64,000 bases of DNA, taken from Brasilonema sp. CT11. GTDB lineage: Bacteria; Cyanobacteriota; Cyanobacteriia; Cyanobacteriales; Nostocaceae. Below, one piece after another: positions 28,461 through 34,251 of this stretch. The notes beneath the pieces are model-generated. The model made no database searches. It saw only the letters and a list, made by a program, of their open reading frames with translations, and was not told the DNA's origin. Both the position numbers and the translations under genes were made by a program. The DNA lies in assembly GCF_017982655.1 (NCBI RefSeq), contig NZ_JABXYX010000006.1, positions 1-64,000 on the forward strand. The letters run 5' to 3'. Within the stretch, counting starts at the first letter, position 1; each line of letters begins with the position of its first letter.

Positions 28461-29036
28461 TCAATTTTTCTCGTGCAGGATGTTATTGACATTCTCAGTG
28501 TTCGCCAAATGCACATTACCGGGGGGATGAACCATTATGGCAATGCAGGGTGAGGAGGCGTTTGCTTGTTTTGCAAATTCAAAAGCGATGCCAAGCTTTG
28601 CATCATCATATATGGTCGGGTTTCCATCTACCGGATGCGCGTTGGGGAAGCGGCCCAAGATTTGCACTCTGGTACTCGCAGTAGAGATACCCTCATGCGT
28701 ATGATACCAAGGAGATGTAACTCGAATAACATCAATACTAGAGCCAGAAAGCGGCTGGACGTTCAGTGCACCGTTGCTGACTGTATGAATGAACAGGGTA
28801 TCAGTCCGACTTTTGTTTTTTGAAACCCAGACCCCTCGGAACTGTGACATACCCACATCTACAGCATCTGGTTTGGGGAGTTTGTTGAGGTAGAAATTAG
28901 CATTGCTGCCGAGGTGTGTCTGCCCGATACTTTGACCGGGAATGATCAGATCGGAAGCGGCTTGTGCTGCCACGGGCGGCAGCGCTGCTATAGCCAATGC
29001 AACACCAAGACCGAAAACAGCTAATGCCTGTCTCAT
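28461..29036 (-). CDS. Secreted hypothetical protein
   Basis: From the ATG at 29036 the protein has 191 residues. It opens with a clear signal peptide (VFGLGVALAIAALPPVAAQA) followed by SDLIIPGQSIGQTHLGSNA. The mature part includes MSQFRGVWVSKNKSRTDTLF and VTSPWYHTHEGISTAS. It looks like a small beta-rich periplasmic domain, possibly binding or regulatory. I do not recognise the family. The open frame continues 69 codons upstream through a hairpin, but only the 29036 start gives a proper signal peptide. Confidence 0.65.
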   Translation of the reverse strand: MRQALAVFGLGVALAIAALPPVAAQAASDLIIPGQSIGQTHLGSNANFYLNKLPKPDAVDVGMSQFRGVWVSKNKSRTDTLFIHTVSNGALNVQPLSGSSIDVIRVTSPWYHTHEGISTASTRVQILGRFPNAHPVDGNPTIYDDAKLGIAFEFAKQANASSPCIAIMVHPPGNVHLANTENVNNILHEKN

Positions 29037-29117
29037 ATTTTCATATGGCGTCAAGTTGATTATAATTTCTTCACTAGCGAAAAAGTGAATTACGGATTTG
29101 TGTGAATAACAAATGGC

Positions 29118-29161
29118 AGGGGTACAGGGAACTTTAGTTTTCAAAAGTTCCCTGTACCCCT
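29118..29161. repeat. 18-bp hairpin downstream of rtcB
   Basis: AGGGGTACAGGGAACTTT at 29118-29135 and its complement at 29144-29161 enclose an eight-base loop. It lies between the rtcB stop (minus strand) and the start of the secreted hypothetical gene, and may end the rtcB transcript, though no T-run follows. Confidence 0.6.
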
Positions 29162-29227
29162 TGTAAGAACTGCAAGAACTGCATCCCTCGGGGTGGGGTG
29201 AAACGAGAATTATGGGCAAGCCTAAAT

Positions 29228-29947
29228 TCAACCCTTCACACAAAGGACTTGCTTGAGTGTTGCTGCAACCTCAACCAAATCCGCTTGATTATTCATCACC
29301 TCATCTATCGGCTTATAAGCACTGGGAATTTCATCCAAAACACCTGTATCTTTACGACACTCTACACCTTTTGTTTGCTCAATCAAATCATCAAGCGTGT
29401 AGGTATTTTTCGCCTTACTTCTTGATAGCAAACGTCCGGCACCGTGGGAACAACTGCAAAAACTGTTGGCAGAACCTTTACCCTTAACAATGTAAGATTT
29501 ACTCCCCATCGAACCGGGGATAATGCCATAATCTTCTTCTGTTGCCCGAACTGCACCTTTACGAGTCACGTAGACATCCTCACCAAAATGCACTTCTTTT
29601 TCAGCGTAGTTGTGATGGCAGTTCACTTCCAATAAAGGCTTAGTCGCTTTACCACCCGCTAGATGCTTTTCGACGATGCGCTTAAAACGCCCCATCATCA
29701 CCTCACGGTTGAAACGCGCATAATTCTGCGCCCACTGCAAATCATGCCAGTATGCTTGAAATTCTGGCGTACCAGCGACAAAATGAGCTAAATCGGGGTC
29801 AGGTAATTTATTACCCGCCATTTTTGCTAATTCTTTAGCTGTATTAATGTGGCACTGCGCTAGATTATTCCCGATATGGCGGGAACCGGAATGCAACATC
29901 AGCCAAACTTGGTTCTCTGTATCGAGGCAAACTTCTATGAAGTGATT
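29228..29947 (-). CDS. rtcB: RtcB RNA ligase, exon 2 (C-terminal part)
   Basis: RtcB joins RNA 2',3'-cyclic phosphate or 3'-phosphate ends to 5'-OH ends using GTP and Mn, for tRNA or RNA repair. This exon encodes 239 residues beginning NHFIEVCLDTENQVWLMLHS, which contains the family's GMP-contacting Asn and Mn-binding His. Later come EVNCHHNYAEKEV and the guanylylated-His region FCSCSHGAGRLLSR. It joins in frame to exon 1 (30991-31452), giving a 393-residue protein close to the usual ~400. A TTG at 29950 could be called as a separate start, but that is an artefact of the intron. Confidence 0.9.
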   Translation of the reverse strand, partial: NHFIEVCLDTENQVWLMLHSGSRHIGNNLAQCHINTAKELAKMAGNKLPDPDLAHFVAGTPEFQAYWHDLQWAQNYARFNREVMMGRFKRIVEKHLAGGKATKPLLEVNCHHNYAEKEVHFGEDVYVTRKGAVRATEEDYGIIPGSMGSKSYIVKGKGSANSFCSCSHGAGRLLSRSKAKNTYTLDDLIEQTKGVECRKDTGVLDEIPSAYKPIDEVMNNQADLVEVAATLKQVLCVKG

Positions 29948-30756
29948 CAATTTGTTACTAATTGCTTGTTAAGCTTGCTCAATCTCCACAGTCTCAGTTC
30001 AACACTATTTCGACTTCTGCTTAACACTTTCATCGAGCACTCAACCGAATGGGTAGTAATGAATTCATCTTCTTCAGGTGTCCAAGACTTTCTATTGTTC
30101 ACCTGCTTCATACCAGGAGGACGTCTCCAACTCAGCACTTCACTAGCCTTGATTAACTTTCTAGATAACCCTAGACAACCATCATAGTACAAGTGCCTTG
30201 CTAATATCTGCGCGTCTTCTTTGTAAACCACTATATTGTAAACGTTATCTCTAACATTCCTATTAGAGGTCTTGGCTTTGCCAGTTATCTGGTTAATTAA
30301 TTCTACATACTCAACAGCAATGTGTGAGCTAGACGTAACCAGAGATAGAAAAGGAAATCCTTTTGAGGTAAGCCCTAGTGAGCCATCCCCATCTATCAAA
30401 CCTCTAAAGTAATCTGCTTTAGAAAAGCTACAACTAGGTGGTTTAATCAACTCTGACTTACTACCGTTCGGTAAACCCCATGATTCAAGAGTATCTCTAA
30501 ATCGTTTATCGTATACTCTCCAAACAACTGATGTGTAATTACTACAAAAATTAGTAGTACGTACACGCTCAATAATAGAGGAGTGAAACGGTATCAGACT
30601 CTTGAAAGTCCATAAGATGTCCTCATCTTGCTTGCTGACTTCTATACTTAACTTACCTCGATTTCGAGTGGTATTGTATAGATGTCCATCAGTTTGAATG
30701 AAGCCAAATAAATAGGCATAATGGGGATTTTCGAGGTTGATATCCGTGGCTTCCAT
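29947..30756 (-). CDS. Intron-encoded LAGLIDADG homing endonuclease
   Basis: The 269-residue protein has two LAGLIDADG-type helices, YLFGFIQTDGHL (near residues 14-25) and YFRGLIDGDGSLG (near 116-128), each with the acidic catalytic residue. It therefore probably acts as a single-chain endonuclease that cuts intronless rtcB. The C-terminal ~45 residues (KSWTPEEDEFITTHS ... VELRLWRLSKL) resemble a Myb/SANT-like helix-turn-helix that may add DNA contacts. It lies wholly inside the intron except the last stop-codon base. Its TGA uses the final two intron bases and the first base of exon 2. Confidence 0.9.
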   Translation of the reverse strand: MEATDINLENPHYAYLFGFIQTDGHLYNTTRNRGKLSIEVSKQDEDILWTFKSLIPFHSSIIERVRTTNFCSNYTSVVWRVYDKRFRDTLESWGLPNGSKSELIKPPSCSFSKADYFRGLIDGDGSLGLTSKGFPFLSLVTSSSHIAVEYVELINQITGKAKTSNRNVRDNVYNIVVYKEDAQILARHLYYDGCLGLSRKLIKASEVLSWRRPPGMKQVNNRKSWTPEEDEFITTHSVECSMKVLSRSRNSVELRLWRLSKLNKQLVTN

Positions 30757-30990
30757 TGTTCCACAATATCACAGATGAAAGTTACAATCGACCAAGTCAT
30801 TTCTGCTTGGTTCTATACCTTCCTATTCGGTATAGTTCGGAGCACACCTTCATCCTAATTCATTAGGATGCCCAAGTCCCTCTGCTCTCTACGGGGTGTT
30901 TTACCACTTCCCTCGGTGTTAGCAATCTCAGCTTTCACCGATTTGGACGAGTTTTCATTACTGTATTACTACAGTACGGGGCAATTCTTT
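29948..30990 (-). mobile_element. Group I-like intron interrupting rtcB
   Basis: The 1043-base insert separates rtcB GGG from NHF codons. The 5' exon ends in T and the intron ends in G, as group I introns do. A P1 helix can form between exon GGGGU and intron GCCCC, with the diagnostic U-G pair at the splice site. The adjacent AAUU can pair with exon-2 AAU as P10. Between the 5' site and the endonuclease gene lie core-like elements: CAAATCGGTGAAAGC, ACACCGAGGGAAG, a 9-bp hairpin at 30851-30870, AAGGTATAG and an ACCAAG/CTTGGT hairpin. In-frame stops rule out an intein. The exact group I subclass is not assigned. Confidence 0.82.
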
Positions 30991-31452
30991 ACCCCCTCCT
31001 AGAGAACCCATTTGTTTCATCGCTTTACCTTGCAAATTTTGAACACCTTGATGCAAGTCTTGGAAATCACGCCAGCGTTGCCAGTTAGTGACACTTTTTT
31101 CAACGTCTTTATTTTCGTTGAAACCTGTAGGAATTTCTGCCTCAAGATCCAAGCGAATTTTCTTTAGCTTGCCTTCCAGTTGTTCACCGTTAAATGGTGT
31201 TTTAATGGCGCACATACCGCAACCAATATCCACACCTACAGCCGCAGGAATAATTGCTTCTTTTGTCGCAATGACAGAACCAACTAAGGCACCTTTACCC
31301 AAGTGAACATCTGGCATCAATGCGACGTGCTTATACACAAATGGCAGTGATGCCACATTCTTTGCCATCTTGGTTTCTTCTGAACCCAAAGGGTGATTTG
31401 CCCAAGAGAGAATGGGTGATGGTGTTGAAAGTTTTAACTTTTCGTAAGCCAT
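30991..31452 (-). CDS. rtcB: RtcB RNA ligase, exon 1 (N-terminal part)
   Basis: It encodes the first 154 residues of RtcB, starting MAYEKLKLSTPSPILSWANH. It includes HVALMPDVHLGKGALVGSV and the metal-binding segment GVDIGCGMCAI, with Asp75 and Cys78 at the same numbers as the E. coli Mn ligands. Coding ends ...KAMKQMGSLGGG at the 5' splice site. Reading on into the intron adds KELPRTVVIQ and then stops, so unspliced RNA would give a truncated inactive protein. Confidence 0.92.
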
Positions 31453-33731: not shown

Positions 33732-33983
33732 ATGGCAGATACTGTCAGTGCAACAGAAGCCCGTGCAAACTTCCAAGAATTAATAAATCGTGTCGAGTAT
33801 AAAGGCGATCGCATTGTTATTGAACGACACGGTAAAGCCGTGGTTGCGATCGTTGGCTTAGAAGATTTGAAACGGCTGGAAGCTTTAGAAGATTTCATTG
33901 ACTCAGAACAGTTACGACATGCTATTGCCCAAAACGATGGTTTTGTAACCTTAGAATCAATTATTAACAGCCGTAATGAGTGA
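33732..33983 (+). CDS. Phd/YefM-family antitoxin
   Basis: The 83-residue protein opens DTVSATEARANFQELINRVE, followed by DRIVIERHGKAVVAIVGLED, the standard DNA-binding half of Phd/YefM antitoxins. The acidic C-terminal region (LEALEDFIDSEQL) should wrap and neutralise the toxin. It overlaps the toxin gene by eight bases. Confidence 0.9.
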   Translation: MADTVSATEARANFQELINRVEYKGDRIVIERHGKAVVAIVGLEDLKRLEALEDFIDSEQLRHAIAQNDGFVTLESIINSRNE

Positions 33984-34251
33984 ACGCTACACTTTGCGGA
34001 TTGCTAAAACAGCAGAAAAAGACTTATTAGACTTGCAAGCTAAACAATTCAAGCAAGTAGTATCTAAAATCTTCTCACTACAGGGCAATCCCAGACCACA
34101 AGACTGCAAAGCCTTAAAAGGCTATGAAGGTGGTTATCGTGTCGATCAAGGAGAATACAGGATTCTTTACACGATTGACGATGACACTCACCAACTTGAC
34201 GTGTTCCGTGTTGGGAAACGAAACGATGATGAAGTTTACCAAAATCTATGA
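33976..34251 (+). CDS. RelE/ParE-family toxin
   Basis: The 91-residue protein (YTLRIAKTAEKDLLDLQAKQ ... LKGYEGGYRVDQGEYRILYT) is a RelE/ParE-superfamily toxin, most like ribosome-dependent mRNA endonucleases such as RelE/YoeB. The GEYRILYTI and DVFRVGKRNDDEVY segments are typical. The start codon lies within the antitoxin gene, implying coupled translation. It converges on the STAND NTPase operon, 14 bases away. Confidence 0.9.
   Translation: MSERYTLRIAKTAEKDLLDLQAKQFKQVVSKIFSLQGNPRPQDCKALKGYEGGYRVDQGEYRILYTIDDDTHQLDVFRVGKRNDDEVYQNL

Follow-up and report, generated by a model that had tools for sequence, protein, structure and literature searches.

In Brasilonema sp. CT11, an insert of 1,043 nt interrupts the gene for the RNA ligase RtcB within the 64,000-nt stretch of contig NZ_JABXYX010000006.1 analysed here (the window), which raises the question of what kind of element the insert is and how it came to lie there. 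In the passages on group I introns of PMC3984707, flagellin, recA and nrdE are the bacterial protein genes that carry such introns, and the corresponding passages of PMC4853749 add dsrA of Thiomargarita; rtcB does not occur in these passages of either paper. In the open literature on rtcB with intron or intein terms, the passages concerned of PMC5871332, PMC6690015 and PMC7824862 report no rtcB intron. Our analysis indicates that the insert is very probably a mobile group I intron that encodes a LAGLIDADG endonuclease, and suggests that endonuclease and ribozyme have separate histories. If true, rtcB joins the host genes of such introns, with copies from every stage of the homing cycle in a single order, so that gain, decay and replacement of the endonuclease become testable, and one site with related endonucleases and two ribozymes would represent a clean natural partner exchange in group I introns.

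Architecture of the interrupted gene

The insert at 29948-30990 splits a minus-strand rtcB, and its excision joins 154 codons (31452-30991) and 239 codons plus stop (29947-29228) into one RtcB frame, which reads ...SLGGG/NHFIEV... across the junction (Table 1). Aligned with Pyrococcus RtcB, the junction falls at 201/202, ahead of the Asn-His pair; His203 of the Pyrococcus protein is a Mn ligand. The first-pass annotation, made from the DNA letters, had described two halves of 154 and 239 residues joining in frame once 29948-30990 is removed, directly before Asn-His, and its coordinates, lengths and junction are right; the P1 pairing of exon GGGGT with intron GCCCC ending in U.G and the terminal G at 29948, which it also proposed, hold. 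An intact rtcB elsewhere had been considered as evidence against an intron, and a PF01139 search of the 8.79-Mb assembly (411 contigs, 96% complete) finds only the two halves, the sole rtcB. The exons are under strong constraint (rtcB dN 0.018-0.163, pS 0.22-0.86). In the neighbourhood, a 260-aa ORF without Pfam match (28461-29243, minus strand) overlaps the rtcB end by 16 bases, and two adjacent small ORFs of 83 and 91 aa on the plus strand (33732-34251) look by eye like a RelB/RelE-type toxin-antitoxin pair.

Table 1. Features of the interrupted rtcB in the window
Feature	Position	Strand	Remarks
rtcB exon 1	30991-31452	-	154 codons, ATG at 31452, ends ...GGAGGGGGT; PF01139
Group I intron	29948-30990	-	1,043 nt
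P1 exon strand GGGGT	30991-30995	-	U of U.G pair at 30991
P1 intron strand, internal guide sequence GCCCC	30978-30982	-	
P10 intron strand ATT	30983-30985	-	partner AAT 29947-29945; first three pairs in 17/19 copies
P2 hairpin	30958-30977	-	double changes in 5/7 pairs; outermost pair mismatched in CT11 copy
Ribozyme core P3-P9 including P3/P7 pseudoknot	30812-30955	-	
P9.1 hairpin	30791-30811	-	loop GCAGAAATGAC
P9.2 5' strand GATTGT	30784-30789	-	precedes endonuclease ORF
LAGLIDADG endonuclease ORF	29947-30756	-	269 aa; TGA stop spans 3' splice site (TG/A)
First LAGLIDADG motif LFGFIQTDG	30685-30711	-	
Second LAGLIDADG motif RGLIDGDG	30382-30405	-	
P9.2 3' strand GCAATT	29960-29965	-	within last codons of endonuclease; 6/6 pairs in 18/19 copies
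Intron terminal G	29948	-	
rtcB exon 2	29228-29947	-	239 codons plus stop, starts AATCAC; PF01139

The insert as a very probable group I intron

The insert has the marks of group I, i.e., a match to RF00028, a P1 with U.G, a terminal G and a P3/P7 core. The Rfam search proposed by the first-pass annotation came out divided, since cmscan aligned RF00028 over its full length (model 1-253) at 31000-30813 with E 1.1e-4, but with 28.6 bits it falls short of the gathering score (50); a window-wide Rfam search at gathering thresholds returned only a tRNA and no group I intron. Rfam alone is thus not decisive, and therefore 15 copies were aligned and a group I structure was assigned.

This covariation alignment covers P1-P9.1 in 15 of the 20 copies described below; two with long P5-loop inserts (G318, G354) and three that were completed or found separately (G021, G091, G242) were omitted. 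Across 58 pairs in 15 copies, 99.9% of the 870 cells are paired and eight pairs show compensatory double changes (five in P2, one each in P6, P7 and P9.1), compared with 36.6-45.3% paired and 0-2 pairs with double changes when partners were slid by 1-3 columns. One P7 pair changes from C-G to U-A in 4/15 copies, while covariation in P3, P4 and P8 says little because these helices hardly vary. The U.G pair of P1 at the 5' splice site is present in all 15 aligned copies and in 19/19 in a wider check, and the terminal G in 17/17 introns and additionally in G021, G242 and G091. Departures are few: the third P10 pair is missing in two of 19 copies, and P9.2 is short of one pair in one of 19 copies. 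Pairing in P10 includes a C-G in place of U-A in two genomes of one genus. The RF00028 E value, the shared junction in 20 copies and the covariation support, at the level of sequence comparison, the group I intron in rtcB that had been put forward.

The LAGLIDADG endonuclease

The endonuclease noted earlier in the insert is borne out by a match of the ORF to LAGLIDADG_3 (PF14528) in two stretches (39.1 bits, E 9.1e-10, cut-off 22.5), and its profile also matches 2dch, I-HjeMI and I-AniI. The motif residues, aspartates included, are invariant in 15/15 endonucleases, and pairwise dN/dS is 0.104-0.239 among the nine full cyanobacterial ORFs and 0.055-0.200 in phages. In 36/36 pairs from nine genomes, the endonuclease shows a smaller proportion of synonymous differences than rtcB does, as lateral spread predicts, with the caveats that the pairs are non-independent, that the two genes may not share the same codon bias and that one pair is near-equal (0.39 vs 0.38). 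The TGA stop straddles the 3' splice site in 7/9 full ORFs and takes its A from the start of exon 2, therefore the excised intron would lack the stop; this suggests that the endonuclease may be translated from unspliced RNA. The protein has a basic C-terminal segment, for which the phage relative shows a weak likeness to a helix-turn-helix that stays under the Pfam cut-off. AlphaFold2 models of two endonuclease sequences had a mean pLDDT of 38.7, too low for use.

No match to the endonuclease was found outside the order in 329 genomes of the phylum. A 29% match in one genome (G206) is a distant endonuclease with no rtcB within its 2.3 kb. In IMG/VR, a single-protein query gave no relative and an alignment query one weak match of 27%; seven phage records were returned by tblastn, and plasmids gave one record. 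The Jeotgalibacillus plasmid relative (44%) ends after 217 residues without the C-terminal segment, and that of the uncultured jumbo phage LR745208 (47%) begins at query residue 32, so that it has no first motif, and is truncated where the record stops. Both lie directly behind an intact rtcB. We considered these two as working free-standing endonuclease genes and rejected the idea as both are damaged, and their support for rtcB targeting is weaker for it. Their place behind rtcB fits a putative long tie of the endonuclease to this gene.

The same site with another ribozyme in Bacillus phages

The five Bacillus phages BSP36, Goe17, 278BB001, Goe20 and Goe27 encode an endonuclease 50.8-52.4% identical to that of CT11 over 94%. 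In 5/5 cases it lies in an insert of 1,120 nt that interrupts rtcB at the junction used in CT11, while three sister phages examined have an unbroken 1,206-nt rtcB. Two phage introns scanned with RF00028 score 72.6 and 68.3 bits, above gathering, and over the 5'-most 324 intron nucleotides the other four phages are 98-99% identical to BSP36. This bears on annotation as well: phage entries record the interrupted rtcB as two genes or hypothetical proteins, and in the entry of 278BB001 the two parts are labelled as N and C terminus of RtcB and the endonuclease as an HTH homing endonuclease.

Gene, junction and endonuclease thus tie the phage intron to the cyanobacterial one, but its ribozyme core is of another kind and it resides in phage genomes. 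Core alignment of the CT11 intron with the phage rtcB intron stays at the level of shuffled sequence (z 0.5 and 0.3), the BSP36 core reaches z up to 2.4 with two other cyanobacterial copies, and the phage intron receives 14.7 bits from the cyanobacterial model, in P8-P9 only. The phage core is also only weakly similar (z 0.9-4.2) to the five reductase introns and three other introns described next. At the DNA level it has relatives in 263 further phage records (155 of the 268 in total from Staphylococcus), one of them within recA of phage 812, upstream of an intron-encoded endonuclease. This Staphylococcus phage 812 intron, with I-812II, is a relative of the phage rtcB ribozyme, differing in the gene that it occupies.

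Among the introns examined, the nearest cores for the cyanobacterial ribozyme are those of cyanobacterial reductase introns. The CT11 core aligns with five of them at z 7.3-12.8, the rtcB model scores 37.6-67.7 bits on the reductase introns examined, and 3' ends are similar, such as GTAACAAAACTG; gene and target site differ, and their P6 is extended. Three introns that look tRNA-borne from their flanks (L124, L132, L133) align with the CT11 core at z 7.0-7.6, which makes the tie to reductase introns the strongest, not an exclusive one. The host genes of two reductase introns (L109, L114) match TIGR02505 (adenosylcobalamin-dependent reductase) above the cut-off, and six more (L122, L123, L125, L126, L128, L129) were called reductase introns from flanking sequence alone. 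According to the passage of PMC12702839 that cites Meng et al. 2007, the RIR intron of Nostoc punctiforme is a group I intron in a B12-dependent ribonucleotide reductase gene; the introns examined here are probably of this published kind, judging by gene and clade. Group I introns recur in class II ribonucleotide reductase genes of the order (L109, L114, L122, L123, L125), and in L114 the gene part downstream of the intron also looks intein-bearing. The P9.1 loop was considered as a mark of a shared module and dropped, a similar loop being present in a hairpin upstream of the core in L132.

Endonucleases that are kin, at one site, with ribozymes that are not close kin, imply that the two components have had separate histories, a conclusion that similarity supports. 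Group II introns that acquired LAGLIDADG endonucleases, as described in the relevant passage of PMC13190283, are alike in that endonuclease and RNA backbone have separate histories; the rtcB case differs in being group I with one shared target gene. We lean slightly towards the reading in which the constant is an endonuclease lineage aimed at the invariant Gly-Gly-Asn-His codons, and the ribozyme is replaceable, reductase-type in cyanobacteria and recA-type in Bacillus phages, with a putative exchange of the ribozyme partner between the phage and cyanobacterial forms. Each ribozyme would then have to splice at the position of endonuclease cleavage, which would account for the insertion nucleotide that they share. 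The main competitor is one composite intron ancestral to phage and cyanobacterium, the phage ribozyme having diverged beyond recognition. Its attractions are the identical insertion nucleotide, the related endonucleases, a P9.1 loop GCAGAAATGAC common to both and a resemblance of the intron termini, GTAACAAATTG and GTAACAGATTG, yet we regard it as rather unlikely in view of the shuffle-level core similarity to the phage set against that to the five reductase introns, the confinement of the model match to P8-P9, and the DNA-level kinship of the phage core to so many other phage records. A vector carrying the cyanobacterial core was sought, with none in plasmids and no cyanophage found; in phages this core gave two short matches, of 18-22% coverage, in Clostridioides phages.

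Distribution and decay within the order

We searched 388 genomes of the order with a covariance model of P3-P9 (at least 96 bits) and found 19 places in 19 genomes of five families, 19/19 in rtcB and at the same junction, one copy (G021) being divided between two contigs. Including Nostoc sp. FACHB-152, the copies number 20. A scan of 386 genomes of the phylum, some of them shared with the 388, showed no rtcB-type match beyond the order. A full endonuclease ORF (266-269 aa) is present in 9/20 copies, eight of them among the 19 from the 388 genomes, a remnant in 5/20 (introns of 304-514 nt), and none in another 5/20 (238-358 nt). In the copy of G354, the LAGLIDADG gene is reduced to a C-terminal remnant and an HNH gene lies in the P5 loop (HNH_5, E 3.3e-11). 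Close relatives are unlike, e.g., G282 with the intron and the congeneric G385 without it, and likewise G365/G309 and G292/G298. On an RtcB tree of 73 rows, the intron label requires 13 changes against a shuffled mean of 16.9, of which well-supported branches force only 2.

From the anatomy of the intron, we expect the RNA to fold into P1-P9.2, guanosine to attack after the U of the P1 U.G pair, and the exon end then to attack after the terminal G, which would restore the Gly-Gly-Gly-Asn-His codons. Judging by its family, the endonuclease encoded in the P9.2 loop would cleave intron-free alleles of rtcB at the junction, after which repair would copy the intron into the cut gene. In lineages where the site is full the endonuclease then decays, as seen in the gradation of the copies from full through partial to empty introns.

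The persistence of endonuclease-free introns in 5/20 copies means that the intron outlives its endonuclease, which could be taken as a sign that it is kept to regulate rtcB with splicing as a switch. We consider this very unlikely, since such persistence is expected anyway because loss needs precise deletion, and the intron is absent from most genomes of the order. Slightly less probable still is a dead insertion, with rtcB a pseudogene and nothing spliced. The gene does look dispensable, in that a PF01139 match is absent from 69/388 genomes, and in G333 rtcB is apparently decayed: five stops interrupt its frame, and a weak match to the N-terminal part lies roughly 12 kb away on the opposite strand. 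Against this, the exons of interrupted alleles are intact and conserved, the exon bases of P1 are held, and ribozyme pairs are kept by compensatory change.

The junction and the choice of site

The two wobble bases of the P1 glycine codons are G and T in 20/20 interrupted alleles, and GGGGGT occurs in 2/51 uninterrupted alleles (54 were fetched, three without the searched motif). The wobble base at -7 is variable among interrupted and uninterrupted alleles alike. Kinship and homing co-conversion may contribute to the difference at the P1 wobble bases. In phage rtcB, 5/5 interrupted genes have T immediately before the junction, and the two uninterrupted ones in which the pattern was found have A.

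The first-pass annotation had seen significance in the host protein being itself an RNA repair enzyme, an idea that finds no mechanistic support. Group I splicing leaves a 3'-OH and a 5'-phosphate, while RtcB seals a 3'-phosphate or cyclic phosphate to a 5'-OH, and because the ends are not those that RtcB seals, we reject its RNA ligation as the cause. It is more likely that the site was chosen as it encodes invariant active-site residues, and inteins lie at two other such motifs. The RtcB inteins resemble the intron in being mobile and in occupying conserved active-site motifs of RtcB, and differ in splicing as protein, in frame and at other sites. That the rtcB insert is itself an intein, removed from the protein, can be dismissed with near certainty, although RtcB inteins exist in this order and inteins too carry LAGLIDADG endonucleases, because an in-frame stop follows exon 1 within 11 codons in 19/19 introns, the intron length is not a multiple of three in 12/17 copies, exon 2 and the endonuclease ORF use different reading frames, and the RNA fold covaries. 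Dual coding, with 749-aa open frames through the intron in two genomes (G035, G139), was likewise ruled out, as direct translation stops at codons 10-11.

RtcB is thus parasitised at three motifs. The inteins of the order are located at GVDIG/C and FCS/C-SHGAGR (eight loci: L081, L082, L083, L084, L120, L060, L063, L056). The first of them occurs together with the rtcB intron in four genomes (G125, G343, G361, G091), and one genome (G229) carries both RtcB inteins.
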